Part shown: positions 3,605 through 31,859 of the stretch, one piece after another
Layout: every line of letters begins with the position of its first letter
Numbering within the stretch: position 1 is the first letter of the stretch
Source of the DNA: Oscillospiraceae bacterium
GTDB taxonomy: Bacteria > Bacillota > Clostridia > Oscillospirales > Oscillospiraceae
Assembly: GCA_017887695.1 (NCBI GenBank)
Contig: JAGHHM010000098.1
Span: 1 to 43,751 of the forward strand
Direction of reading: 5' to 3'
Length of the DNA: 43,751 nt
The notes under the pieces: generated by a model
What the model was told of the DNA's origin: nothing
What the model saw: the letters and a program-made list of their open reading frames with translations, nothing else
Databases searched by the model: none
Made by a program: the position numbers and the translations under genes

Positions 3605-3742
3605 GCTATTTGGGTTACCAGTAAGGTTTTATTACGGCAGTTCAGCGTTGTCTGTTTCACAGCAATTTTCTGCAGATTCTGTCCATGATCACATGTATAC
3701 TATTGTTGCAACACAGAAATTATGAAATTTTATGGCGAAATA

Positions 3743-19556: not shown

Positions 19557-20264
19557 TCAAACAAATCTGGTTTTCTCCAGTTCCAGCAGGGCCTCGTCCT
19601 GCCAGGCCTGGCTATCTGCTCCGGGGCCTTTCCCCGGCTGGGGATCTTCTGCGGGCCCCTCCGGTCCGCCGTAGCGCTTGGCTTTGATTACGCCCGCCTC
19701 CGGCTGAGTGGGCACGGCCACCAGGGACACCTCGTATGCCTCCGCCGCCCCGTCCAGCAGGAACACGCAGCGGGCGCCGTCGTACTCCCGGCCGGGGATG
19801 TGCTCGCACCACTCCCGGCGCTGGTCCTTGCCGCAGATGGAGCAGATCACCCGCTCCACCGCCACGCCCACACTGCACTCCCGGAGGATCCCGGTCTCAA
19901 TGGCGGCGATGGTGTCCTCAGTCTTGTCCATCCTGGGCATATAGCAGCTGAGGACCAGCTGGCGGCCGCCGCCCGGCTTGTCCTCCACGGCAGCGGCATA
20001 TACCCGGGCGGTCTGGACAGTGGCGCTCCAGCGGTGGTCCATCAGCACCGGCCGGCCGGGGAACAGCTCCGCGAAGCCCTGGAGGGCCTCCTCGGTGAAG
20101 CGCTCATCGTCCCGGTCCACCTGGTCGTTGCAGGCCGCCAGCCGGAAGGTGAATACCTCTTCGGCCTTCAGATCCCGCAGGGCCTGCTGGTTGATCAGCC
20201 GCAGGGCCTCCTCGCTCAGCTCCGCCGCCTTTTCCACCAGGGCGGCTTTGAAAAGTTCAGCCAC
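19557..20264 (-). CDS. Prohead protease-like protein
   Basis: VDRDDERFTEEALQGFAELFPGRPVLMDHRW...; position before capsid; GTG start near 20264 with AGGAG. Confidence 0.8.
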   Translation of the reverse strand: MAELFKAALVEKAAELSEEALRLINQQALRDLKAEEVFTFRLAACNDQVDRDDERFTEEALQGFAELFPGRPVLMDHRWSATVQTARVYAAAVEDKPGGGRQLVLSCYMPRMDKTEDTIAAIETGILRECSVGVAVERVICSICGKDQRREWCEHIPGREYDGARCVFLLDGAAEAYEVSLVAVPTQPEAGVIKAKRYGGPEGPAEDPQPGKGPGADSQAWQDEALLELEKTRFV

Positions 20265-20294
20265 TTTCTCACTCCTTTCTCGTTTCGCAGGCAT

Positions 20295-20345
20295 AAAAAA
20301 ACGCCAGAACCGGAGAAGAAGATCATCCTTCTCACGGCTCTGGCG
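20295..20345 (-). terminator. Intrinsic terminator/attenuator inside the structural operon
   Basis: Minus strand CGCCAGAGCCGTGAGAAGGATGATCTTCTTCTCCGGTTCTGGCGTTTTTTT. Confidence 0.8.
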
Positions 20346-20397
20346 CTGGGCTTTCTCAGCCTCTGGCTCTGGCACTTACCTGTATGTTCTTTTTCCA

Positions 20398-21087
20398 TCA
20401 CTCTACAATTGGCCTGCTGGCGGCCCGGATCCGGCTCAGCTCCGCCCAGTCCGCCAGGGGGACAAAGTTGAGACTGGCCCGCCGGTGCTCGCCGCCGGGC
20501 ACGTCCGGCATGTCCTCCAGGGCCAGGATGTCGTTGACGGAGAACACGCCTTCGTCAATCATCGTCTGATACCAGCCGGACCGGGCGCCGGTGTCGCCCC
20601 GGAGCTCGGCCATGAGGTTGATCCGCAGCTCCAGGCCCCGGTCTACCTGGCTTTTGGCCAGCAGCTTCCAGGTCTGCTCCTCCTCGTACTGGTTCACAAT
20701 GGGGTGGAGGGTGCCCACCACATACTCGATGGCGTTCTGCTCATTGGAGCCGTAGGCCTGCTTGCCCTCCTGAAGCTTGTAGAGAGGGACGCCTGACATG
20801 GCCACCTCTGCCCCGCCGCTGCCCTCAATGATCATGCCGTAGGTGGCGCCGTCCGGGGCCTCGCCTTTGAAGTACTGCTCATAGAAGGTCCCTCCGCAGG
20901 CGGAGCACCGGCATTCCACCGCCGGCACCTTCCGCCGCTTACCGCTGAGGACGGCCTCGGGGGAGGTGTCCTCCTCCCAGACTTTCCGGTACACGATCCC
21001 GGCGGTGTCCAGCTCTCCCAGGTTCATCGCCCATGGAAGCAGGCCCTCCGGGGCCTTGCGGCTCACCAGATCTTTGTAGTCCTTCAT
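20398..21087 (-). pseudogene. Chimeric ORF: PcfJ-like N-terminus fused in frame to phage portal C-terminus
   Basis: First ~85 aa (VECRCSACGGTFYEQYFKG zinc-ribbon, following a PcfK-like gene); last ~145 aa portal-like (GVPLYKLQEGKQAYGSNEQNAIEYVVGTLHPIVNQYEEE...RGDTGARSGWYQTMIDEGVFSVNDILALEDMPDVPGG). Confidence 0.78.
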
Positions 21088-21099
21088 CCTGCCGTCCCC

Positions 21100-21450
21100 C
21101 TAAAAGAAGTCAGTCAGATCAATGAATTTGCTGCTTCTCCTGTCCTCCTGACTGGCCGTCGGATCAACGTCCCGCTCCGGCAGGCCGTAAAACTCCCGGA
21201 TGATCTTCTCCGCCCGGATCGGTGTCACACAGGCGAAATTTCCCACCTTGTGCTGGTCTGCCCACGCCTTGATCTTCTTCTCGCAGTGCTCCAGGCTCAT
21301 TTCCGGTACTTCCAGATCACGCAGAACGATCTCCGCCATGTGGGGCTCCTGCCGCAGCATATCCTTCAGCTGTTCGCCCACCATCCATACAGCGTTTTCC
21401 TCTTTAGGCTGCTGTGCGGTGATAGCCTCTATCGCGGCACTCAGGATCAT
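21100..21450 (-). CDS. PcfK-like protein
   Basis: MILSAAIEAITAQQPKEENAVWMVGEQLKDMLR...MSLEHCEKKIKAWADQHKVGNFACVTPIRAEKIIREFYGL. Confidence 0.75.
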   Translation of the reverse strand: MILSAAIEAITAQQPKEENAVWMVGEQLKDMLRQEPHMAEIVLRDLEVPEMSLEHCEKKIKAWADQHKVGNFACVTPIRAEKIIREFYGLPERDVDPTASQEDRRSSKFIDLTDFF

Positions 21451-21695
21451 TGAGAATCCCCCCCTTCCGCCGGCTCCGCCTCCCGGCCCAGCCACTGCTC
21501 CAGGCACTGGGCGCACTGGTCGTTGTCAATTCCCTCCAGGCGTTCCAAGGAGACAAAGCACTCCGGTCGCTCCTGGCAATACTGGGGGCCCTCCAGCTCC
21601 TCGATCTGCATGATGAACCGGGCCAGGGCCTTGTCATCCATGGCCCGGATCTCATCGCCCCGGGTCATGGGCTTGTGTTCCATCTTGATAGCCAT
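21447..21695 (-). CDS. Phage hypothetical protein
   Basis: 82 aa in tightly packed early operon; overlaps neighbours by a few nt. Confidence 0.55.
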   Translation of the reverse strand: MAIKMEHKPMTRGDEIRAMDDKALARFIMQIEELEGPQYCQERPECFVSLERLEGIDNDQCAQCLEQWLGREAEPAEGGDSQ

Positions 21696-21849
21696 TATTT
21701 TTCTCCTTTTCCGCAGCTGCCAACAGGTCCTCCAGGGCCCAGGCCACCGTCAGGTGGTCCACCTTCAGCTGCATATCATTCGCCATGGTGCTTAGGGATC
21801 TGTGCCGCCGGATCTCTGCCTTGATGATCTGCACGGCAGTCTCATCCAT
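21652..21849 (-). CDS. Phage hypothetical protein
   Basis: Start MDETAVQIIKAEIRRHRSLSTM at 21849, overlapping the DnaB-like stop. Confidence 0.5.
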   Translation of the reverse strand: MDETAVQIIKAEIRRHRSLSTMANDMQLKVDHLTVAWALEDLLAAAEKEKNNGYQDGTQAHDPGR

Positions 21850-23224
21850 GGGCTGCCACCTCCTGGTCAAAGGGACTGGGCTCATAGGAGCGCACTGGCC
21901 GGAAGAGATTTTGCTGGGGATCTGGCTCCTTCTTGGGAACAGTGGACATCGGCTGGGATACGGACTTGGAAAAGCGCTGCTTGTCCCCTTCGAAGTTCAG
22001 CAGAAGCCCCAGCCCGGCCTCGCCGTCTTTGTTCTTGGCCAGATCCAGAACCCGCCGGCTGTAGGCGAAGTCCTGGTACTCCTTGTAGAGCAGCAGCACC
22101 ACATCGGCGTCCTGCTCGATCTGTCCGGACTGGCGGAGGCTGGAGAGGGTAGGGGGTGGTGTGGAGCCGTCCTTCTTTTTGTCGGGGCGGCTGAGCTGGG
22201 AGAGGGCCACCACGGTTTTCTTGGTGGTGCGGCCCAACTGCTGCAGGTCGTTGGAAACCTGGGAGACCTTTTCAACGTCGCTCATGTACCGCCCGGCCCG
22301 GACGACGGGGATCTTCTGCAGGTAGTCAATCATGATAACGTCGTAGTGGTGGGCCATGGCATAGGAGCCGATGGAGCCTACCGTCATGCCGCTGGCCTCG
22401 ATAAGATCCATCACCGGTGCGGTAAGGTGCTGCCGGAGATCTCTGATCCGGCCATAGTCCTCCTGCTGGAGGGCGTTGCCCAGGATCCGCTTGAAGCTGG
22501 TGTGGGTCTGACAGGCCACGGTCCGGTCATAGAGCTTGTCCGCGTCGGTCTCGTAGCTGAAGAACCCCACCCGCTTGCCATTCTTGGCCAGGTGGAAGGC
22601 CACCTGCAGGGCAAAGGCGGTCTTGCCGGCGGAGGGGTATCCGCCGATGACCACCATGTCCCCGGGGCCGGCGTGGAGCTGCTGGTCCAGATCCGGGAAA
22701 CCCAGCTTCAGGAAGTCGGGAGGCTTGCCGCCGTCCCGGCGCTTGAAGAAGGCCCGGAAAGCCTCCTGGAGGGTCACCCGCCGGATGCCGGACCGCTCGC
22801 AGAAGAGGAGGTTTGCCTGGTCGATGGCGGCCCGGCAGGCGTCCTCGTCCTCGGCCGTGGCCAGTTGCTCTCCTATCTGACGCAGACGATGGAGCCGGGA
22901 TGTTTTTTTCAGGGCCTCGGCGTAGGCGTCGGCATTGGCAGAGGTGGGAGTCACCTCGATGTACCGGGCCATAAGGTCGCGGTATTTGCCGCCCAGGGCC
23001 TCACTGACGGTGATGGCGTCCACCGGCTGTCCCTGGCCATAGAGCTGGGCCATGCAGCGGAAAATGGTCCGCTGCTCCGGCAGCTGGAAGTCATCCTCCG
23101 CCACTGCCATGAGCATGGGGCCCACGGCGGCCTCGTCGATGAGCATGGATCCCAGGACGCCTACGGCAGCGGTCATGAGGCTCTCGCTGAGGAGATGCCC
23201 CTGCTTGTCCTTGTCGTTCATCAC
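21842..23224 (-). CDS. DnaB-like replicative helicase
   Basis: VIGGYPSAGKTAFALQVAFHLAKNGKRVGFFSYE Walker A; VIMIDYLQKI Walker B; DnaB N-domain. Confidence 0.93.
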   Translation of the reverse strand: MMNDKDKQGHLLSESLMTAAVGVLGSMLIDEAAVGPMLMAVAEDDFQLPEQRTIFRCMAQLYGQGQPVDAITVSEALGGKYRDLMARYIEVTPTSANADAYAEALKKTSRLHRLRQIGEQLATAEDEDACRAAIDQANLLFCERSGIRRVTLQEAFRAFFKRRDGGKPPDFLKLGFPDLDQQLHAGPGDMVVIGGYPSAGKTAFALQVAFHLAKNGKRVGFFSYETDADKLYDRTVACQTHTSFKRILGNALQQEDYGRIRDLRQHLTAPVMDLIEASGMTVGSIGSYAMAHHYDVIMIDYLQKIPVVRAGRYMSDVEKVSQVSNDLQQLGRTTKKTVVALSQLSRPDKKKDGSTPPPTLSSLRQSGQIEQDADVVLLLYKEYQDFAYSRRVLDLAKNKDGEAGLGLLLNFEGDKQRFSKSVSQPMSTVPKKEPDPQQNLFRPVRSYEPSPFDQEVAAHG

Positions 23225-23994
23225 AGGTACCGCACCCCCTCACCGCGAAGCGGCTGGGGCCCATCCGGAGGACCACTGGGGCTGGCGGACAGATCCACCT
23301 CTGTCCACCGGCGCTGGTTGAGCCAGGTGGAGGCGTAGGGGATGCCGATGCCGTCCTGCCACATCTTGCTGGCCATCTGGATGGTCAGGGCCCGGCCCAT
23401 GACGGCCAGAAGGTTGTCATCTGGCTTCAAATTGTCCCAGGCCCTGATAGCCGCCTGCTTGCTCTCACCCCGTGGGTAGTAGTCCCAGAAGGCGGCAAAG
23501 CGATCCGGCTTCCAGTCGGGGGCGGCTTTTGGCTTCTTGGGGCCCTTGGTGCGCCTCCCCCGTTGGGGGATTATAGGGGGTATGTTCATATCTTTAGATT
23601 GTTCTAGTGGCGAATTTTCGCCGGAGGGGTCCGGCGGATTTTCGCCAGAGGGGTATGGCGGATTTTCGCCGGAGGGGGTGACCTGCGGCTCTTCCACGAT
23701 GGTGGGCCTGTCCATCCAGATCCGGCGCTCCACTACGGCATTATTGCCGGGGTCTCGGATCACCTCCACCGAGAGGTAGCCCTTTCGCTCCAGGGACTGG
23801 ACCAGCTCCCGGACTGTCCTGGGGCTGATGGCAAACAGCTCCGCCAGATAGGCGTTGCTGGCCCAGCAGTAGCCGGTGGCGTCGGCCATGGCGGTTATCT
23901 CTGCATACAGGAGCTTGGCATTGGGCCGCAGCTCCGGATCATAGCGGACCCGGGCAGGGAGGACGGCCCAGAAAGCCGGCTTTTGCTCAGCCAT
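23221..23994 (-). CDS. Phage replication initiation protein (N-terminal helix-turn-helix)
   Basis: FWAVLPARVRYDPELRPNAKLLYAEITAMADATGYCWASNAYLAELFAISPRTVRELVQSLERKGYL; adjacent to DnaB. Confidence 0.8.
   Translation of the reverse strand: MAEQKPAFWAVLPARVRYDPELRPNAKLLYAEITAMADATGYCWASNAYLAELFAISPRTVRELVQSLERKGYLSVEVIRDPGNNAVVERRIWMDRPTIVEEPQVTPSGENPPYPSGENPPDPSGENSPLEQSKDMNIPPIIPQRGRRTKGPKKPKAAPDWKPDRFAAFWDYYPRGESKQAAIRAWDNLKPDDNLLAVMGRALTIQMASKMWQDGIGIPYASTWLNQRRWTEVDLSASPSGPPDGPQPLRGEGVRYL
23609..23680. repeat. Three tandem 24-bp iteron-like repeats inside the replication gene
   Basis: GGCGAATTTTCGCCGGAGGGGTCC / GGCGGATTTTCGCCAGAGGGGTAT / GGCGGATTTTCGCCGGAGGGGGTG. Confidence 0.85.
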
Positions 23995-24008
23995 ACTGCG
24001 CCACCCCC

Positions 24009-24037
24009 TTGCGGTCCGCTGGTGAATATGCTATAAT
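24009..24037 (+). promoter_or_regulatory. Promoter for a putative antisense small RNA
   Basis: TTGCGG-N17-TATAAT with TG 1 nt upstream of the -10. Confidence 0.65.
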
Positions 24038-24042
24038 CAACA

Positions 24043-24103
24043 TGTGAGCGCGGCTTATGCCTCCTGTCCTCTGTGGGGTCCCATCCCACAGGGGACTTTT
24101 TTT
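24043..24103 (+). ncRNA. Putative ~60-nt antisense RNA opposite the replication-gene leader
   Basis: Promoter immediately upstream; ends in 12-bp stem GTCCTCTGTGGG-GTCCCAT-CCCACAGGGGAC followed by TTTTTTT. Confidence 0.55.
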
Positions 24104-24135
24104 ATCTGCCTTCATGGCTGCCTCCTCCTATGTAC

Positions 24136-24378
24136 TCAGGCCAGGATCTCCCCCCGGCGGTACAGATCAATACACTTCTGCCGGATCCGCTCCCGGCGGC
24201 GCTCCTGGGCCTCCGGGGTAACGCAGGGGTCCCACAGCTCCACCGTGGTCACGCCGTATTTAGGGCCCCAGTCGATCTTCCGGATGCTCTTGATCCAGGG
24301 CTTTCCGTCCCGCTCCACAGTCTCGGTGGAGACGATGGTCATGATGGGATTATCCGGGCTGGCGGGTTTGTCCGTCAT
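24136..24378 (-). CDS. Phage hypothetical protein
   Basis: 80-aa ORF in early operon. Confidence 0.55.
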   Translation of the reverse strand: MTDKPASPDNPIMTIVSTETVERDGKPWIKSIRKIDWGPKYGVTTVELWDPCVTPEAQERRRERIRQKCIDLYRRGEILA

Positions 24379-24421
24379 GGCGCCACCTCCTCGCTGCAGT
24401 CTATGGCCCTCCGGGGTTGTC

Positions 24422-24871
24422 CTATGTCCGGGTGTGCTCTGATACCTTCAGGTTGGTTGCGGCCTGGATGATGCCGTCCAGCTCCGCCACGATCTCGCCA
24501 AACAGTTCCCGCTCGCTCTCGTCGATGACGCCGTCCTCGGCGATTTGGAGCAGTTCCCGGTCCCGATGGCGGTCAGCGAAGGCGATGACCTTGTTGATCA
24601 GCTGGATGGCGGCCCGGGGCAGATCCAGCACCTGAATCTCCGGCACTACCTTGATCTCCCCGGAGGCGATCCGGTTGTGCTGATAGGCCAGATAAAGGGC
24701 ATCGTAGACGATGCACATCCGGTCCACGATCTCGGCAGGGGGCAGGCGGTTGTAGCTTTCATAGGCCTTGATGCTCTCCACGGAGATTCCAATGGCCTCG
24801 GCAGCCCCTTCCTGGGTCTTTCCGGCCTTGATCCGTGCGGTTTTGTAGATGTTTGTGTCGTACATGGACAT
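24422..24871 (-). CDS. XRE-family HTH protein
   Basis: NIYKTARIKAGKTQEGAAEAIGISVESIKAYES. Confidence 0.8.
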   Translation of the reverse strand: MSMYDTNIYKTARIKAGKTQEGAAEAIGISVESIKAYESYNRLPPAEIVDRMCIVYDALYLAYQHNRIASGEIKVVPEIQVLDLPRAAIQLINKVIAFADRHRDRELLQIAEDGVIDESERELFGEIVAELDGIIQAATNLKVSEHTRT

Positions 24872-24898
24872 GGTTTATTTCTCCTTCCAGGGGTAAAA

Positions 24899-25150
24899 TC
24901 AGGATAGTGGGAGGATCATGCCCTGCTCCAGATCATAGCGATAGCTGGCCCGAGCGAAGGCTTCCTCGTCGAAGTCCTCCGGGAGGTCCAGGCACTCCAC
25001 CGGGCCGCTGTAGGTCACCGGGTGGGCCTCGATGTCGTACCAGAGCCGGGCGGTGAATCCCAGGGACAAGGCCAGCGCCAGGATCAGCGCGGCGAGGGCG
25101 GCGTACCAGAGCCGCCGGCGGCGTCGCCGCTGTAATCGTGTCTTGTGCAT
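24899..25150 (-). CDS. Small membrane protein
   Basis: Arg-rich N-terminus then one TM helix (LWYAALAALILALALSLGFTARLWY). Confidence 0.5.
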   Translation of the reverse strand: MHKTRLQRRRRRRLWYAALAALILALALSLGFTARLWYDIEAHPVTYSGPVECLDLPEDFDEEAFARASYRYDLEQGMILPLS

Positions 25151-25163
25151 GGTGCGCCTCCTT

Positions 25164-25424
25164 TCAGCTGGTGTGTTGGGTATAGAGCTGGCCCACCTCC
25201 ACGCCCAGGATCTGGGCCAGGAGGGGGAGCTTGTCAGATCTAGGGGAGGACTTTCCCGTCTCCCACTTGACGACCGCCGGGCGGCTGACGCCCATCAGCT
25301 GGGCCAGCTCACCGGGGCTGTAGCCCTTGGCTTCCCGCAGGGCTTTGATGGCCATGGCCACCGCGATCACCTCGCTCTCTTGAAATCTTGGGGGTTTTGT
25401 GATACTGTAACTTTGAGTTACCAT
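25164..25424 (-). CDS. XRE/Cro-type regulator
   Basis: GYSPGELAQLMGVSRPAVVKWETGKSSPRSDKLPLLAQILGVEVGQLY. Confidence 0.85.
   Translation of the reverse strand: MVTQSYSITKPPRFQESEVIAVAMAIKALREAKGYSPGELAQLMGVSRPAVVKWETGKSSPRSDKLPLLAQILGVEVGQLYTQHTS
25407..25421. promoter_or_regulatory. Perfect inverted repeat GTAACT-TTG-AGTTAC over the Cro-like start codon region
   Basis: Directly downstream of the minus-strand ATG at 25424. Confidence 0.5.
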
Positions 25425-25453
25425 ACGCCGGAGGGATAGAAGGGTGTGATAGG

Positions 25454-25831
25454 ATGCTCAGCAAAGATTGTACCCAGCTCATGGAATGGATAGGGGATCA
25501 GTGGTGCCCGGTTCCCATGGCACGGATGCAGGAGCTCCTGCCGCCCGGGTTCTCCGAACAGCGTGTGAATGACCTGCGGAAAGATGGATTTCTGAAATGG
25601 GAATACGTTCCTTTTGGAGATGGGCTTGCAGCTGGATATTCTCTCAGCGATAAAGGGAAGGCGTACCTAGAGGAGCGAGAACAGATAGCTGAGAAAGCTA
25701 GTCAGCAAGCTGCCGAAAAGCGCGCAGAGCACAAGTTTCAGATATTTTATGTGCTCCTCGGTTCGCTGCTTACGCTGCTGATCGAGCATGGGCCCAGGAT
25801 CTTCAACTATCTTCAGACCCTGCTTAGTTAA
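25454..25831 (+). CDS. Winged-helix-like protein with C-terminal TM helix
   Basis: PPGFSEQRVNDLRKDGFLKWEYVP...YSLSDKGKAYLEEREQ; FQIFYVLLGSLLTLLIEHG. Confidence 0.6.
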   Translation: MLSKDCTQLMEWIGDQWCPVPMARMQELLPPGFSEQRVNDLRKDGFLKWEYVPFGDGLAAGYSLSDKGKAYLEEREQIAEKASQQAAEKRAEHKFQIFYVLLGSLLTLLIEHGPRIFNYLQTLLS

Positions 25832-25990
25832 TCGCGCCTCGAAGTCATTCCAAAATGCCTGGAATTGAGCGTCATCATAGCCCTCCTCCACTTCGGGGAT
25901 CATACCAGCATTGAAGGCAGACAGTAGAGCGATGGCTTTTGGCGTTAGTGAGATGTGAAGGACTCCCATCTCCTTCATGTGGTCAGGCAC
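25667..25990 (-). CDS. Hypothetical protein with C-terminal TM helix; antisense overlap with 25454-25831
   Basis: GTG at 25990 with AAGGAGG; ...TEEHIKYLKLVLCALFGSLLTSFLSYLFSLL. Confidence 0.55.
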   Translation of the reverse strand: MPDHMKEMGVLHISLTPKAIALLSAFNAGMIPEVEEGYDDAQFQAFWNDFEARLTKQGLKIVEDPGPMLDQQRKQRTEEHIKYLKLVLCALFGSLLTSFLSYLFSLL

Positions 25991-25995
25991 TTCTT

Positions 25996-26030
25996 CCCTC
26001 ACCTCCTTCTGTGGCGGCTGCCGTGGGGCG
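25996..26030. repeat. 35-bp repeat copy 1
   Basis: ccctcacctccttctgtggcggctgccgtggggcg; 33/35 identical to 26372-26406. Confidence 0.85.
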
Positions 26031-26059
26031 ATCTAAAATTTTGAAAAGGAGACAAAGCG

Positions 26060-26272
26060 ATGGCAATGCCCGATTTTCAAGACTTTATGGCCACTCTCGA
26101 CGGAGAAACCATATCCAGCATCATGAAAGATGCCAATAATGCCATGAAACTAGCAGAGATGCAGGATATTAACCGCGAGAGCATTCCCGGGGCCCAACTG
26201 CTCAGCGCGAGCTTTCAGATTGCCCTTGAGCTCCTCGCAATCTATCACAAATGGCTTGAGAAACAGCTTTAA
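26060..26272 (+). CDS. Small phage protein, 70 aa
   Basis: AAAGGAGA RBS; MAMPDFQDFMATLDGETISSIMKDANNAMKLAEMQDIN. Confidence 0.6.
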   Translation: MAMPDFQDFMATLDGETISSIMKDANNAMKLAEMQDINRESIPGAQLLSASFQIALELLAIYHKWLEKQL

Positions 26273-26366
26273 GGTCATCATCGGAGACAGTGCTGGTTGT
26301 GGGGCTGGTTAGCTCCGACACAAAAGAGGCAATCTCTTCTGGCGTGCCTCTGATGATAATTTTCAT
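26202..26366 (-). CDS. 54-aa phage protein below ORF-track cutoff
   Basis: GGAGGTGAGGGCGGGG RBS; MKIIIRGTPEEIASFVSELTSPTTSTVSDDDLKAVSQAICDRLRGAQGQSESSR; convergent overlap with 26060-26272. Confidence 0.5.
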   Translation of the reverse strand: MKIIIRGTPEEIASFVSELTSPTTSTVSDDDLKAVSQAICDRLRGAQGQSESSR

Positions 26367-26371
26367 CCCCG

Positions 26372-26406
26372 CCCTCACCTCCTTCCGTGGCGGCTGCCGT
26401 GCGGCG
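26372..26406. repeat. 35-bp repeat copy 2
   Basis: ccctcacctccttccgtggcggctgccgtgcggcg. Confidence 0.85.
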
Positions 26407-26434
26407 TGTGGTGTAACTTACGGTATTATCATAA

Positions 26435-26501
26435 TTTTGTAATTACAAAATGTCAACCGGTTAAATTATGTTATTACAAAATTTGTATGTAATCACAAAA
26501 T
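26435..26501. promoter_or_regulatory. Repressor operator region
   Basis: Perfect 16-bp palindrome TTTTGTAATTACAAAA (26435-26450), plus ATTACAAAA and TAATCACAAAA half-sites upstream of the CI-like gene. Confidence 0.65.
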
Positions 26502-26517
26502 CTTTTTTATATTGTAG

Positions 26518-26877
26518 GTGATGCCTATGGACAGAGAAGTTCTTGTGCAAAACATCAAATTGCTTTGCGAAAAAAAGGGAATTAAACAAACAGTGGCTTG
26601 CCGAGAAAGTGGCGTTGGCGTTAGCTTTGTCAACGATATTGTTCGAGGACAGACACCTTCAGTTGCAAAAGTGCAGATGCTGGCCAACTATCTGGGCGTG
26701 ACCACAAGCGAGCTCCTGGGAGAAGAAAACAAAAAGCCCGCCGCCGGAGACGGCGACGGGGTGTCCGAAAACGAAGCTATTTTCCGGGCGCTGCCTCCTG
26801 ATCTGCAGGAGGAGGCCCTGCGGTACATGCGCTATCTCGCAGCGCAAGCAGGTACTCACGAAGATCCAAAGGATTGA
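26518..26877 (+). CDS. CI-like XRE repressor
   Basis: IKQTVACRESGVGVSFVNDIVRGQTPSVAKVQMLANYLGVTTSELLGEE; AT-rich palindromic operator upstream. Confidence 0.85.
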   Translation: MMPMDREVLVQNIKLLCEKKGIKQTVACRESGVGVSFVNDIVRGQTPSVAKVQMLANYLGVTTSELLGEENKKPAAGDGDGVSENEAIFRALPPDLQEEALRYMRYLAAQAGTHEDPKD

Positions 26878-26926
26878 TGCTGGCTTCCAGCCGGCGGAAC
26901 TCGGCAATGCGTTCTTGTTCGGTCAT
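26777..26926 (-). CDS. 49-aa phage protein below ORF-track cutoff, convergent overlap with repressor
   Basis: AAAGGAGG RBS; MTEQERIAEFRRLEASINPLDLREYLLALRDSACTAGPPPADQEAAPGK. Confidence 0.5.
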   Translation of the reverse strand: MTEQERIAEFRRLEASINPLDLREYLLALRDSACTAGPPPADQEAAPGK

Positions 26927-26977
26927 GATGGCAGCCTCCTTTGTTGAGATATACCATCATCGCAAATTGTGACCCAA

Positions 26978-27025
26978 GTTGCACGAAGCTGTGCAACAAA
27001 AATAAAAAGTGTCCGATTTGGACAC
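26978..27025. promoter_or_regulatory. Two inverted repeats upstream of the DUF4041 gene
   Basis: GTTGCAC-GAAGCT-GTGCAAC (26978-26997) and GTGTCCGATTTGGACAC (27009-27025). Confidence 0.6.
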
Positions 27026-27040
27026 AGAGGGAGAGAGAAA

Positions 27041-28351
27041 ATGGAAGCTTATATAGTCCTGACGATTGTATTTTTGATTCTTTGGCTATACGAGCGCAGT
27101 AAGTCGAAAAAGGCAAAGCAAACGATTTCAGAAGCAAATAGTTATGCTGAAGAAAAAAAGGCAGAGGGAGACAAATTATACGAGGATAAGCACCGGGAGG
27201 CCCTAGATTATTATTGGAAGAAAACCCAAAGCGCCGATGAAAGAGTAAAAAAGGCTGAGCAGGAAATTGAGAAACTAGGTAATGAAAAAGCCAAATTGGA
27301 AGAGGAGCTTGATATTCTCAGTAAGGATGTAATCTGTGCTGCGGTTTCTGTTGATGCCTATGAGGGATTAAAGTCCGATGAGATAAAGAACCAGTTGGCC
27401 ATCCTAAAAACCCGCCAGGAGGAGCTGATTCGATCTGGCAACGCTCTAGTGGTTTCCGGAAACGATGGGCCTCGGCGTGTTGTAGATAGTCAAAAAAAGC
27501 AGATCCTTCGTTGCTTTAACTCGGAATGTGGGACGATCATTGGTGGGGTAACTGCCAATAATGTGGATACAGCCAGATCAAAACTCCAAAAGACCTATGA
27601 AGCGTTGAATAAGATGTTTGCAGTTGATGGAGTGCAGCTGTCTGAAGAAGTTTTTTCTTTAAAACTTGAAGAATTGAGCATGGTATATGCCTATATGCTA
27701 AAGGTTGAGGAAGAAAAGGAGACCAAGAAGGCGATTCGAGAGCAGATGGTCGAGGAAGAAAAAGTCAGAAGGGAGATTGAAAAAGAAAAGCAGAAAATTG
27801 AGAAGGAAGAAGCTCAGTTTTCTAATGAAGTTAAAAAGCTCATGGGGTATATGCAGAAGGCTAAAGATGATATAGAGAAGCAGCTTTATGTTGATAAGAT
27901 TAAGGAACTAGAAGCAAAGCTGCAGGATCTTGCAAAGGATAAGGAAAATGTTCTCCAAAGAGAACAGAACACCCGTGCCGGCTTTGTGTATATCATTTCC
28001 AACATAGGTTCCTTTGGGGAACAAGTATTTAAAATCGGCATGACCCGCCGGTTGGATCCTATGGATCGTATTAGTGAGCTGAGCAGTGCCTCGGTTCCGT
28101 TTCCTTTTGATGTCCATGCGCTGATTTTCTCTGACGATGCACCTGCCCTGGAAACTGTTCTCCACCATCATTTCCAAAGCCAGCAGGTTAATAAGGTAAA
28201 CGCACGAAAAGAATTTTTCCGCGTTGACCTTGATAGCATCAAAAAGGTTGTTCTGGAAAACCATAATGCTACGGTTCAATTTGTGGAAATCCCAGAAGCT
28301 ACGGAATATAGAGAGACTTTGCGCATCGAGAAGGAAGCGCAAGTAGGTTAA
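27041..28351 (+). CDS. Membrane-anchored DUF4041 / T5orf172 (GIY-YIG-like) protein
   Basis: N-terminal TM; coiled coil; DUF4041-like core (LRCFNSECGTIIGGV...); C-terminal GFVYIISNIGSFGEQVFKIGMTRRLDPMDRISELSSASVPFPFDVHALIFSDDAPALETVLHHHF. Confidence 0.85.
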   Translation: MEAYIVLTIVFLILWLYERSKSKKAKQTISEANSYAEEKKAEGDKLYEDKHREALDYYWKKTQSADERVKKAEQEIEKLGNEKAKLEEELDILSKDVICAAVSVDAYEGLKSDEIKNQLAILKTRQEELIRSGNALVVSGNDGPRRVVDSQKKQILRCFNSECGTIIGGVTANNVDTARSKLQKTYEALNKMFAVDGVQLSEEVFSLKLEELSMVYAYMLKVEEEKETKKAIREQMVEEEKVRREIEKEKQKIEKEEAQFSNEVKKLMGYMQKAKDDIEKQLYVDKIKELEAKLQDLAKDKENVLQREQNTRAGFVYIISNIGSFGEQVFKIGMTRRLDPMDRISELSSASVPFPFDVHALIFSDDAPALETVLHHHFQSQQVNKVNARKEFFRVDLDSIKKVVLENHNATVQFVEIPEATEYRETLRIEKEAQVG

Positions 28352-28426
28352 CTATTGGTGATACATAGAGGGGGCCGCTCCGCCGGAATGGCGGGGCGGC
28401 TCCGATTAAAGAAAGGAGGCCCTCCC

Positions 28427-29968
28427 ATGACCCGTGAGCTGCTGGAGCAGATGCGCTCCGAGGGCCGGCTGGTGCCGGCGTCCATGTACCTGAGAAAATC
28501 CCGGGCGGAGGAGCACATGGGCCTGGAGGAGACCCTCTCCCGCCACCGCTCCACCCTGACGGCCTTCGCGGAGAAGTACGGCTTCCTGATCCGGGAGGAA
28601 GATGTCTACGAGGAAGTGGTCTCCGGCGAGAGCCTGTTCGCCCGGCCTCAGATGCTCCGGCTCCTGGAGGCGGTGTCCCAGGGGCGGTATGCCGCCGTCC
28701 TCTGTATGGACATGCAGCGTCTGGGCCGCGGCGGCATGTATGACCAGGGCATCATCCTGGACACCTTCAAGGGTTCGGAGACCCTGATCGTCACCCCGGA
28801 GCGGACCTATGACCTGACCCAGGACATAGACGAGGAGGCAGCGGAGATGCAGACCTTCCTCAGCCGCAGCGAGTACCGGCTCATCACAAAGCGTCTGCGC
28901 CGGGGAGTGCTCCACTCGGTGGAGCAGGGGGCCTACATGGCAAATCCGCCTTTTGGGTACCGCAAGACGGAGATCAATAAACTGCCCACCCTGGAGATCG
29001 TGCCGGAGGAGGCGGAGATCGTGCGGACCATTTTCCGGATGTACGCCGCCGGGAACGGCTGCACCCGGATCGAGCAGACAGTCAACGCCATGGGAGCCCA
29101 TGGCCGCCGGGGGAGCCGCTTCAACCGGAACACCATCCGCCAGATATTGGATAACCCGGTCTATGTTGGCAAGATCCGGTGGAACCGGACCAACACGGTT
29201 AAGACTGGGGTAGGGGAGCAGCGCCGGCGGGTGGTGGTGTATAACACCGCTGACCGGTGGACGATCCTTGACGGAAAGCATCCGGCCATCATTGACCAGG
29301 ATCTGTGGGATGAGGTGCAGGCACTGCGAAAGAGCCGCTATTTCTACATCGATAATAAGCATGTGGCCAGCCCGTTGGCAGGGCTTGTCCGCTGTACTAA
29401 GTGCGGCCGTGGCTGCAATATGCAGGGGAAGAACAAAGGGGTGGCGTACCTCCTGTGCCCCACACCAGGCTGTACAGCAGGGGCAAAGTTTGAGTTGGTG
29501 GAGCAGGCGGTGCTGCTGCAGCTGCAGGAGATTGCCCGGGGACTGGAAATCAGCCTCAGCCGGCAGGCGCCGCCGGACACGGCAGCCTTGGAGAAGGAGC
29601 TGGCCCAGACCCGGGAGCAGCTGGGGCGGCTGTCCGGCCGTCGGGACCGGCTGTATACCTTTCTGGAGGATGGCACCTACACCCGGGAGATCTTTGCCCA
29701 GCGGATGGCGGTGCTCTCTGAAGATGAGGAGCGGCTCCGGGGACGTATCGAGGAACTGGAGGGAAAGATCCGCGCGGAGCTTGGCAGGGATAAGCGCAAG
29801 CAGCTGGCACGGCTGAAGGAAGTCCTGGCCAACTACCAGGAGGCGAGCCTTGCAGGCAAAAAGGATCTTCTGCAGTCCATCGTGGCGGTGATCTACTACA
29901 CCAAAAAGAAAAAGACGAAACCTGGTGATTTCTCCATCCAGGTCGTCCTGCGTGAAGATCTGGAGTAA
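28427..29968 (+). CDS. Large serine recombinase (phage integrase)
   Basis: YLRKSRAEE...MDMQRLGRGGM resolvase domain; recombinase domain; zinc ribbon CTKCGRGCNMQGKNKGVAYLLCPTPGC; C-terminal coiled coil; AAAGGAGG RBS. Confidence 0.95.
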   Translation: MTRELLEQMRSEGRLVPASMYLRKSRAEEHMGLEETLSRHRSTLTAFAEKYGFLIREEDVYEEVVSGESLFARPQMLRLLEAVSQGRYAAVLCMDMQRLGRGGMYDQGIILDTFKGSETLIVTPERTYDLTQDIDEEAAEMQTFLSRSEYRLITKRLRRGVLHSVEQGAYMANPPFGYRKTEINKLPTLEIVPEEAEIVRTIFRMYAAGNGCTRIEQTVNAMGAHGRRGSRFNRNTIRQILDNPVYVGKIRWNRTNTVKTGVGEQRRRVVVYNTADRWTILDGKHPAIIDQDLWDEVQALRKSRYFYIDNKHVASPLAGLVRCTKCGRGCNMQGKNKGVAYLLCPTPGCTAGAKFELVEQAVLLQLQEIARGLEISLSRQAPPDTAALEKELAQTREQLGRLSGRRDRLYTFLEDGTYTREIFAQRMAVLSEDEERLRGRIEELEGKIRAELGRDKRKQLARLKEVLANYQEASLAGKKDLLQSIVAVIYYTKKKKTKPGDFSIQVVLREDLE

Positions 29969-29988
29969 ATCCTCTAAACTGCTTCATG

Positions 29989-30090
29989 CTATTCTCTGCA
30001 CGCGTCATAGATCTTTTTGGTATGGATACAAACGGCCTCACAGGTATCCTTGGAGCCGGATACGGGGCCGGGTACAATGCGATCAGGCAT
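29989..30090 (-). pseudogene. 5' fragment of the interrupted cysteine-rich gene (33 codons then phage-derived stop)
   Basis: TAGGAGG RBS; MPDRIVPGPVSGSKDTCEAVCIHTKKIYDACRE*; continues in frame at 3543(-). Confidence 0.82.
29993..29994. other. attR crossover (right prophage boundary, proposed core TC/GA)
   Basis: Minus strand GAC GCG TGC AGA|GAA TAG. Confidence 0.75.
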
Positions 30091-30239
30091 AATGGACCTC
30101 CTACTAAGTAAAACTATGGAAGGCGTCTGCCTTCATTTCCAGTGTATGCGCTCCAGAGCGGTTGGTGAAAATTCGGACTATACAAATTTGTCCCGGGCGG
30201 GTATAATGAAAGCGGAAAGAGTAAGAGCGGAGGTGGGTC

Positions 30240-30806
30240 ATGACCGAATTCGGCTTTATCAGCGACAAGCTGGAGATCAAATTTTTGATCCTGTATATCG
30301 CCGCCAGGATTATTGAACCGGTGCCCTTTGAGGTACTGCAGGATCTGAGCATGTGCGACGGCGGTGTGGATTATTTTGACTTTTCCGAGTGCCTGGCGGA
30401 TCTGGTCCGTACCGGCCACCTCAGCCGCAGCGAGGACGGACTCTACGCCATTACGGAAAAGGGGCGGCTTAACGGGGCCATCTGTGAATCCAGCCTGCCC
30501 TATTCCGTGCGGATGCAGGTGGATCAGAACCTGGTAAGTCACAATGAGCGCCTCAAGCGCCGGGCTTTGGTGCAGGCTCAGGTCCAGGAGCGGCCGGAGG
30601 GAGGCTACACAGTGACGCTTGCTCTCAGCGATGAGCTGGATAATCTCATGAAGCTGGAGCTTTTGGTCACCCGGGAGGATATGGCTCAGACGATTCAGAA
30701 GAATTTTAAGGCAGATGCGGAGAGTATCTACTCCCGGATTTTGGCGGTGCTGTTCAACCCTGAGGAGGGGCGGGACACCAGGCCGTCAGACGCTCCACCT
30801 GTGTAA
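30240..30806 (+). CDS. DUF4364 family protein
   Basis: FGFISDKLEIKFLILYIAARIIEPVPFEVLQDLSMCDGGVDYFDFSECLADLVRTGHL. Confidence 0.85.
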   Translation: MTEFGFISDKLEIKFLILYIAARIIEPVPFEVLQDLSMCDGGVDYFDFSECLADLVRTGHLSRSEDGLYAITEKGRLNGAICESSLPYSVRMQVDQNLVSHNERLKRRALVQAQVQERPEGGYTVTLALSDELDNLMKLELLVTREDMAQTIQKNFKADAESIYSRILAVLFNPEEGRDTRPSDAPPV

Positions 30807-30850
30807 TAAGGGTAAAATTTTTACAAAATATCATATGACGGAGATCTTGT

Positions 30851-30891
30851 CCCCGTCCCATCCAGTAAGATGGGACGGGGCTTTTTTGCTT
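30851..30891 (+). terminator. Rho-independent terminator
   Basis: CCCCGTCCCATC-cagtaa-GATGGGACGGGGcttttttg. Confidence 0.88.
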
Positions 30892-30897
30892 CTGTGG

Positions 30898-30926
30898 GCA
30901 TATCCGGGGACGAGCTCTCATACAGT
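30898..30926 (+). promoter_or_regulatory. Sigma-E-like promoter of spoIIIA operon
   Basis: -35-like GCATATCC and -10 CATACAGT just upstream of spoIIIAA. Confidence 0.6.
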
Positions 30927-30950
30927 GGGAACAAGAACGGACAGGGAGGA

Positions 30951-31859
30951 ATGGCGATGACAGAGGACCGCTATAAGGAGGCCTGCGCCCTGCTGCCGGA
31001 GGCATTGCGGAAGGTAGCGCTGGGGGTGGATCCACCTCGGCAGGCCAGGACGGAGGAATTGCGGCTGCGGGTGGGGAGGCCCCTGGCGCTGACGCTGCCG
31101 GAGGGAGAAGTATCTCTGCCGGGACCGGCGGTGGACAGCAGCGATCTTACCCAAGTGCTGGACAAGGCCACCGCCTTTTCCCGCTATGCCGCCGGGGAGA
31201 CCATCAGCCAAGGGTTTGTGACAGCGGAGGGTGGCTTCCGGATTGGCCTGTGCGGAACAGCCATTCCCGAGGGTGGAGAGAACCGGGGACTGCGGGATAT
31301 TACTTCGGCGGCGATCCGGATCCCTCATGCTTGCCCCGGGGTGGCGGAGCCTTTGCTGCCGGAGCTCCTGGAGCGGGGCAGGGTGCGCAGCACCCTGATC
31401 CTTTCCCCACCGGGGGGCGGCAAGACCACACTGCTGCGGGACCTGGTGCGGCTTCTGAGCCAGGGCGGCGCTTTGGCGGGGCCTATGCGGGTGGCGCTGG
31501 TGGACGAGCGGGGGGAGCTGGCGGCGGTGTGCCGGGGTAAGCCGCAGCTGAATGTGGGGCCCTCCACAGATATCCTGGACGGCTGCCCCAAGGCGGCGGC
31601 GGTACCCATGCTGCTGCGGGCCATGAATCCCCAAGTCATTGCCCTGGATGAGATTGCCCTGCCGGCGGATGTGGGGGCGGTGCTGTCGGCGGCAGGGTGC
31701 GGGGCGGCAATCCTGGCCACTGCCCACGGCGCTTCGGTAGCGGAGCTGCGCCGTCGAACGGTGCTGCGGGAGCTTCTGGAGAGCGGGGTATTTCGTCGGG
31801 CGGTGGTCATTGAGGGCCGGGGCGCGGAGCGCTGCTGCCGGGTGGAGGAGCTGCTGTGA
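30951..31859 (+). CDS. spoIIIAA: Stage III sporulation protein AA (ATPase)
   Basis: LILSPPGGGKTTLLRDLVRLLS; VALVDERGELAAV; operon order. Confidence 0.95.
   Translation: MAMTEDRYKEACALLPEALRKVALGVDPPRQARTEELRLRVGRPLALTLPEGEVSLPGPAVDSSDLTQVLDKATAFSRYAAGETISQGFVTAEGGFRIGLCGTAIPEGGENRGLRDITSAAIRIPHACPGVAEPLLPELLERGRVRSTLILSPPGGGKTTLLRDLVRLLSQGGALAGPMRVALVDERGELAAVCRGKPQLNVGPSTDILDGCPKAAAVPMLLRAMNPQVIALDEIALPADVGAVLSAAGCGAAILATAHGASVAELRRRTVLRELLESGVFRRAVVIEGRGAERCCRVEELL

Follow-up and report, generated by a model that had tools for sequence, protein, structure and literature searches.

A predicted antisense RNA gene opposite the leader of a phage replication initiator, conserved in related temperate phages of gut Clostridia

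Introduction

Antisense control of replication initiators is classical in plasmids and, by way of OOP, has been discussed for lambdoid phages. Does a prophage of an Oscillospiraceae bacterium carry a control of this kind? The question is raised by the leader of the rep gene in a stretch of 43,751 nucleotides (hereafter the window, meaning the whole of it), where a promoter followed closely by a terminator reads against the direction of the replication genes. We analyzed this unit in the window, in related rep loci and in bacterial genomes at large, and asked what it most probably does.

The window holds a prophage with a serine integrase (28355–29968) and capsid, tail sheath and baseplate genes, flanked by host genes such as those for lacto-N-biose phosphorylase and sporulation stage III. 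The prophage encodes its early genes on the minus strand, HTH regulators first, followed by rep and then dnaB. Profile matches identify rep (23221–23994, minus strand) as a replication initiation protein gene (phrog_270, HTH_36), the presumed target of the antisense RNA, and the next gene of the operon as a DnaB-like replicative helicase (21842–23224, minus strand). Upstream of rep and in the same direction lies an 80-aa ORF from the ORF list (24136–24378, minus strand), for which the profile search returned no family match. A repeat search found three 22-nt iteron-like repeats at 24-nt spacing within rep (23608–23677), 317–386 nt into the gene, and the replication origin is therefore probably inside rep, as in lambda O. 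A candidate early promoter, TTGACA-N17-TATGAT (26428–26456, minus strand, a consensus match only), would place the rep leader within a polycistronic transcript; it diverges from an HTH repressor-like gene at 26518, and 26428–26518 is the probable early promoter and immunity region. The portal match (20398–21840) covers the C-terminal part of the profile only, and the window showed no terminase like that of phage Cormatin; a defect in the prophage, or genes that escaped recognition, may account for this.

Results

The antisense unit is directly visible in the sequence of the window. As the original prediction had described, TTGCGG and TATAAT, 17 bp apart, are followed by a stem and a T7 tract on the plus strand. 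The −35 hexamer occupies 24009–24014 and TATAAT 24032–24037; a TG at 24029–24030, which that description lacked, makes this an extended −10 (TGCTATAAT, 24029–24037, plus strand). Judged by promoter spacing, the RNA would begin near 24044, and fold, scanner and covariance model R1 (see below) support a predicted product of about 55–60 nt (24044–24103, plus strand) that is fully antisense to the leader of rep, as had been proposed for a gene starting at the ATG at 23994 on the minus strand. Folding places a first hairpin, H1, at 24052–24061 (plus strand), where it is short in the window (GGC-UUAU-GCC). The second, H2, forms with the T7 tract an intrinsic terminator (24066–24103, plus strand) recognised by scanner, fold and family covariation; the T7 tract (24097–24103) is as predicted, but the stem (24066–24096), put at 12 bp originally, has 14 pairs around a 3-nt loop when the scanner allows G-T. 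The predicted RNA folds at −30.3 kcal/mol (z −4.45), and 0 of 200 shuffles folded as well. Its end at 24103 leaves about 33 nt to the stop of the upstream 80-aa ORF at 24136. On the minus strand, the rep Shine–Dalgarno (SD) sequence AAGGGGG (24004–24010) shares two bases with the antisense −35, the first two of the hexamer. The match of CCTCCT in the RNA to AGGAGG in the leader is also present but is a weak argument, as it is automatic for any antisense RNA and so uninformative; the nearest relative has AGGCGG.

TTGCGG is a weak −35 that a simple promoter scan missed, as might be expected if promoter and terminator motifs without function had come together by chance. We therefore turn to controls. 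A scanner for a promoter followed by a terminator, for which lambda oop served as positive control (the sole unit in a 1.9-kb lambda stretch), reported two units in the 43.7-kb window, the one at the rep leader scoring higher for both promoter and terminator. First-order Markov shuffles of the window (n=20) gave a mean of 0.0 units, and a single shuffle of the related rep loci, 873 kb in all, gave 1. These shuffles, the conservation, the covariation and the independent model match described below all contradict a chance origin, which we regard as exceedingly improbable.

Conservation was examined first in the nearest relative (G395), which shares 94% DNA identity with the window over the antisense unit. 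Between the two, 6 of the 17 spacer bases are changed, compared with 1 of the 53 RNA bases and none in the −35, TG, −10 or T tract, a distribution that suggests purifying selection on the unit. The six substitutions are clustered in 10 bp of the spacer (24022–24031 in the window) between nearly identical flanks, and they alter four codons of a putative leader ORF. The relative keeps the rep module, while the head and tail region of the window does not align. On its contig C18 (L167, L168), amid host genes similar to those around the prophage, lies a related element whose integrase and rep module can be aligned with the window's; about 8 kb of sequence takes the place of the head and tail genes. 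Loss of promoter and terminator from close relatives, which the original prediction had named as a ground for rejecting it, was not seen: the nearest relative and distant relatives alike keep the layout.

Among 89 non-redundant loci with related rep genes, 51 have an antisense unit upstream of rep; in 26 it sits right at the start of rep and in 25 elsewhere within 1.6 kb upstream, whereas sense-strand units in the same loci number 3 (binomial p 3e-12 for the antisense excess); no unit was detected in the remaining 38. Across the family, in which the −35 takes the form TTGCAA or TTGTNN, the antisense −10 is mostly 35–40 nt before the rep start codon and the −35 overlaps the SD. This recurs on the sense strand as ATTATAnCACA-N-CAAGGGGG-N-ATG, and antisense promoter and ribosome-binding site are therefore locked together. 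Some of the 25 units placed further upstream face a small ORF or an HTH gene. One locus (L108) has two RNA units about 1 kb apart upstream of rep (2519–2601 and 3607–3689), each before a different small ORF.

The unit also keeps company with a partition gene. Where the sequence extends far enough, 32 of 33 loci that carry the unit encode ParA downstream of rep-dnaB, compared with 10 of 21 loci that lack the unit (Fisher p 3.5e-5, ignoring the relatedness of the loci). The association fits a plasmid-like module, although ParA is absent from the window itself, and suggests plasmid-like partition in these temperate phages. In Cormatin (L045, 6102–8422), ParA and a ParB-like protein follow rep-dnaB, and in many IMG/VR loci ParA lies about 2 kb downstream of rep.

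The search for covariation in related phages that had been proposed for this element gave a clear answer: the terminator stem covaries strongly. It is 91% paired across the family, and 12 of its 13 pairs show double changes. Double-change cells numbered 59, against 23.4 ± 4.0 after shuffling and 14–29 when the structure was slid along the alignment. The covariation score of the whole structure, which was drawn from the very sequences scored, was 0.512, compared with 0.217 ± 0.024 (shuffled) and at most 0.158 (slid); the slid control carries more weight than the shuffle because related sequences can inflate covariation scores. The sequences of the stem arms diverge widely while the structure persists. 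Folding energies show which strand is maintained: the antisense form of H2 is the more stable in 47 cases against 2, and that of H1, which is dispensable for termination, in 36 against 9. This bears on a reading in which not the RNA but a convergent polymerase at the overlapping promoter, by interference or as a roadblock, lowers rep expression. The overlap of the −35 with the rep ribosome-binding site and the shortness of the unit would suit it, but a bare promoter would need neither of the hairpins, and the antisense strand has kept both, even H1, which is no part of the terminator; we hold interference to be very unlikely.

The 5' motif UGUUCUCRUG and the loops are conserved beyond what pairing in cis needs, which leaves room for another target. 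Together with the copies that lie away from the rep start, this would fit a trans-acting sRNA that merely adjoins rep and whose conserved 5' tail finds its partners among other mRNAs of phage or host. Against it stand the repeated, exact antisense placement at initiator leaders, where the −35 is tied to the SD, and the pairing energies of the 5' tail: within the window, to which the search was confined, its best off-target duplex reached −33.6, far weaker than the −46.6 of its own complement. We consider a purely trans-acting role unlikely.

In order to follow the unit beyond these loci, covariance model R1 was built from 18 relatives, the window being left out, with the promoter TGnTATAAT, the 5' tail, H1 and the covarying terminator hairpin H2 as its features. 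It matched the window at 24029–24104, scoring 41.1 bits. Over the 2.4-Mb host genome this corresponds to an E of 1.9e-4, the runner-up having 0.92, so that the rep-leader unit is the sole convincing match in the host genome. Matches occurred in 40 of 351 genomes of the bacterial family and in 7 of 338 sampled across the class, the window's genome included, in scans whose stricter filters lose weak matches; the unit is thus mostly a feature of the phages of this bacterial family. Among the best 35 matches in other genomes, about 20 lie before rep-family genes; others lie before an unrelated initiator (phrog_11233), or before small ORFs and HTH genes that immediately precede rep. Weak matches in four loci (L160–L163, locus position about 1501–1600) are antisense to integrase leaders, the integrases being serine in L160–L162 and tyrosine in L163. 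Given these matches and the units placed upstream, rep may not be the sole target.

Cormatin, an induced phage (PMC10197239) that Flavonifractor plautii YL31 carries as a prophage, has the unit before its replication initiation gene (L045, 3500–3567). Ten distant records that have related rep genes were searched as well; R1 matched a single one of them, Acetoanaerobium phage ANDSL2_ph1 (E 2e-4), whose unit sits before a small ORF upstream of rep. In Erysipelothrix phage SE-1 (L169, position 827, minus strand) the scanner reported a unit with TTGACA-N17-TAGAAT upstream of the rep module; R1 gave no match to it, and it may be an OOP-like RNA in its own right. When viral contigs were scanned for the exact pattern, which proved too strict, 2 matches came back. 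A search of 20000–31000 of the window against Rfam gave no match at the site even at E<=5, and in relatives there were sub-threshold matches only, among them sar and ctRNA_pGA1. The family has the plasmid-type countertranscribed layout, with its own promoter and terminator and an antisense position to the initiator leader. A literature search found no published description of the unit; a set of 3161 candidate RNAs from human microbiomes could include it (PMC8040213).

Discussion

Promoter, terminator, conserved RNA fold and placement opposite initiator leaders are established here by computation. How, then, would an RNA from this unit act on rep? The original prediction had pointed to pT181, pIP501 and R1. 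In attenuation as in pT181 and pIP501, the RNA would pair with the nascent leader and favour a terminator just before rep. Attenuator-like arrangements do occur: in two of the loci with integrase-facing matches (L162 and L163) a sense hairpin with T6 lies directly before the integrase start, L163 having a 16-bp competing pairing besides, and a few rep leaders (L048, L082) have a small hairpin with UUU before the SD. In rep leaders, however, neither a sense terminator nor preemptor pairing is general. The region after the −10 is no more structured in 53 leaders than in shuffles (mean z 0.0), the RNAs pair barely better with their own leader than with others (mean rank 0.44, with 0.5 expected), and the window is without a sense terminator at the rep leader. 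Attenuation is accordingly quite unlikely.

Nor did the R1-type coupling survive. The 18-codon leader ORF that had been suggested (23987–24043, minus strand) is not conserved and has no well-placed SD, the AGGAGG lying 16 nt from the proposed ATG; overlapping short ORFs with a plausible SD were present in 7 of 53 leaders, the window not among them. Both pT181-type attenuation and leader-peptide coupling are thus disfavoured. Masking of the SD by the RNA was likewise rejected: pairing with the SD and start region (−26.1) was no better than in shuffles (−26.7 ± 3.9), and the predicted RNA stops about 30 nt short of the SD, which makes direct masking impossible. Covariation between loop and SD, judged by eye, showed no clear trend. 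With no general attenuator, leader ORF or SD pairing, what remains is that the RNA inhibits translation by acting ahead of the SD, or that the duplex is cleaved.

The reading we favour, and consider probable, is a stand-alone antisense RNA gene whose product would act as a countertranscript and lower rep-dnaB output. Host RNA polymerase would start at about 24044 from the extended −10 promoter, whose −35 lies inside the rep ribosome-binding site, and would yield a product of about 60 nt with a 5' tail and two hairpins, ending at the T7 terminator. Its complement would lie in the intergenic leader of the early mRNA, in the stretch from about 50 to about 110 nt ahead of the rep ATG, and pairing would most likely lower Rep (and DnaB) by blocking translation initiation, by exposing the duplex to RNase III, or both. 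Since each template would yield the RNA, more phage or prophage copies would mean more RNA and less Rep, a dosage-sensitive brake on initiation. For phages that replicate lytically, the benefit of such a brake is not obvious.

Among known systems, pMV158 RNAII, pSK41 RNAI and lambda OOP come nearest in layout, nearer than pT181 or R1; the unit most likely works like a plasmid countertranscript or OOP. Repression has been tested in all three (PMC4485353; PMC5703833; PMC3349717). RNAII of pMV158 is a short, self-terminating intergenic RNA against the copG-repB operon, with a 5' tail and a terminator hairpin, complementary to the mRNA immediately upstream of the translation signals of the initiator (PMC4485353). 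However, pMV158 is a rolling-circle plasmid with an unrelated initiator, and its RNAII has 48 nt and one hairpin, whereas most members of the phage family have two hairpins, and the setting is a phage early operon with a strong SD. RNAI of the staphylococcal RepA_N plasmid pSK41 resembles the phage RNA in form: it runs to about 83 nt, has two stem-loops behind an unstructured 5' tail, and opposes the rep leader of a theta replicon that has its origin inside rep and uses no attenuation (PMC5703833). RNAI is, however, a proposed inducer of a stem-loop that sequesters the ribosome-binding site, of which the phage rep leaders show no general trace. The countertranscripts pT181 RNAI and pIP501 RNAIII also face rep leaders and limit Rep (PMC5703833), but they do so by attenuation, and the sense terminator that this requires is not general in the phage rep leaders.

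Lambda OOP (pO-oop-tO) is alike in being a short, self-terminating RNA read away from O, with its promoter at the O start, and in the iterons inside O, which parallel the iteron-like repeats inside rep. It differs in that it overlaps the end of cII, its established target, while the RNA of the window ends before the upstream ORF. The best R1 match in the lambda stretch falls at the oop position, with 10 bits and a non-significant E of 0.22. The OOP hybrid is cleaved by RNase III (PMC5869508), and OOP and ori have been tied to silencing of early replication (PMC3349717). A replication-linked transcript, serving as primer or in origin activation, was once discussed for oop, and for the window it could draw on the lambda-like geometry of iterons 317–386 nt into rep and on the report that oop together with ori silences theta replication (PMC3349717). 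The RNA of the window is, however, transcribed away from the iterons and stops after about 60 nt, with the iterons more than 350 nt behind its start, and such a role is highly improbable.

Taken further, the countertranscript reading leads to a broader proposal, which we offer tentatively and think rather less likely than its converse: temperate phages of gut Clostridia may carry a hitherto unnamed antisense-RNA family that sets initiation frequency by gene dosage, usually within a plasmid-like module (antisense RNA, rep, dnaB, parA), and that can be redeployed before unrelated initiators and integrases. If true, this would fit with the partition genes that these modules often carry, would add to phage annotation an RNA family that it currently misses, and could be tested directly in Cormatin, an inducible isolate in Flavonifractor plautii. 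It would also mean an extra layer of early lysis/lysogeny control in the temperate phages of gut bacteria.
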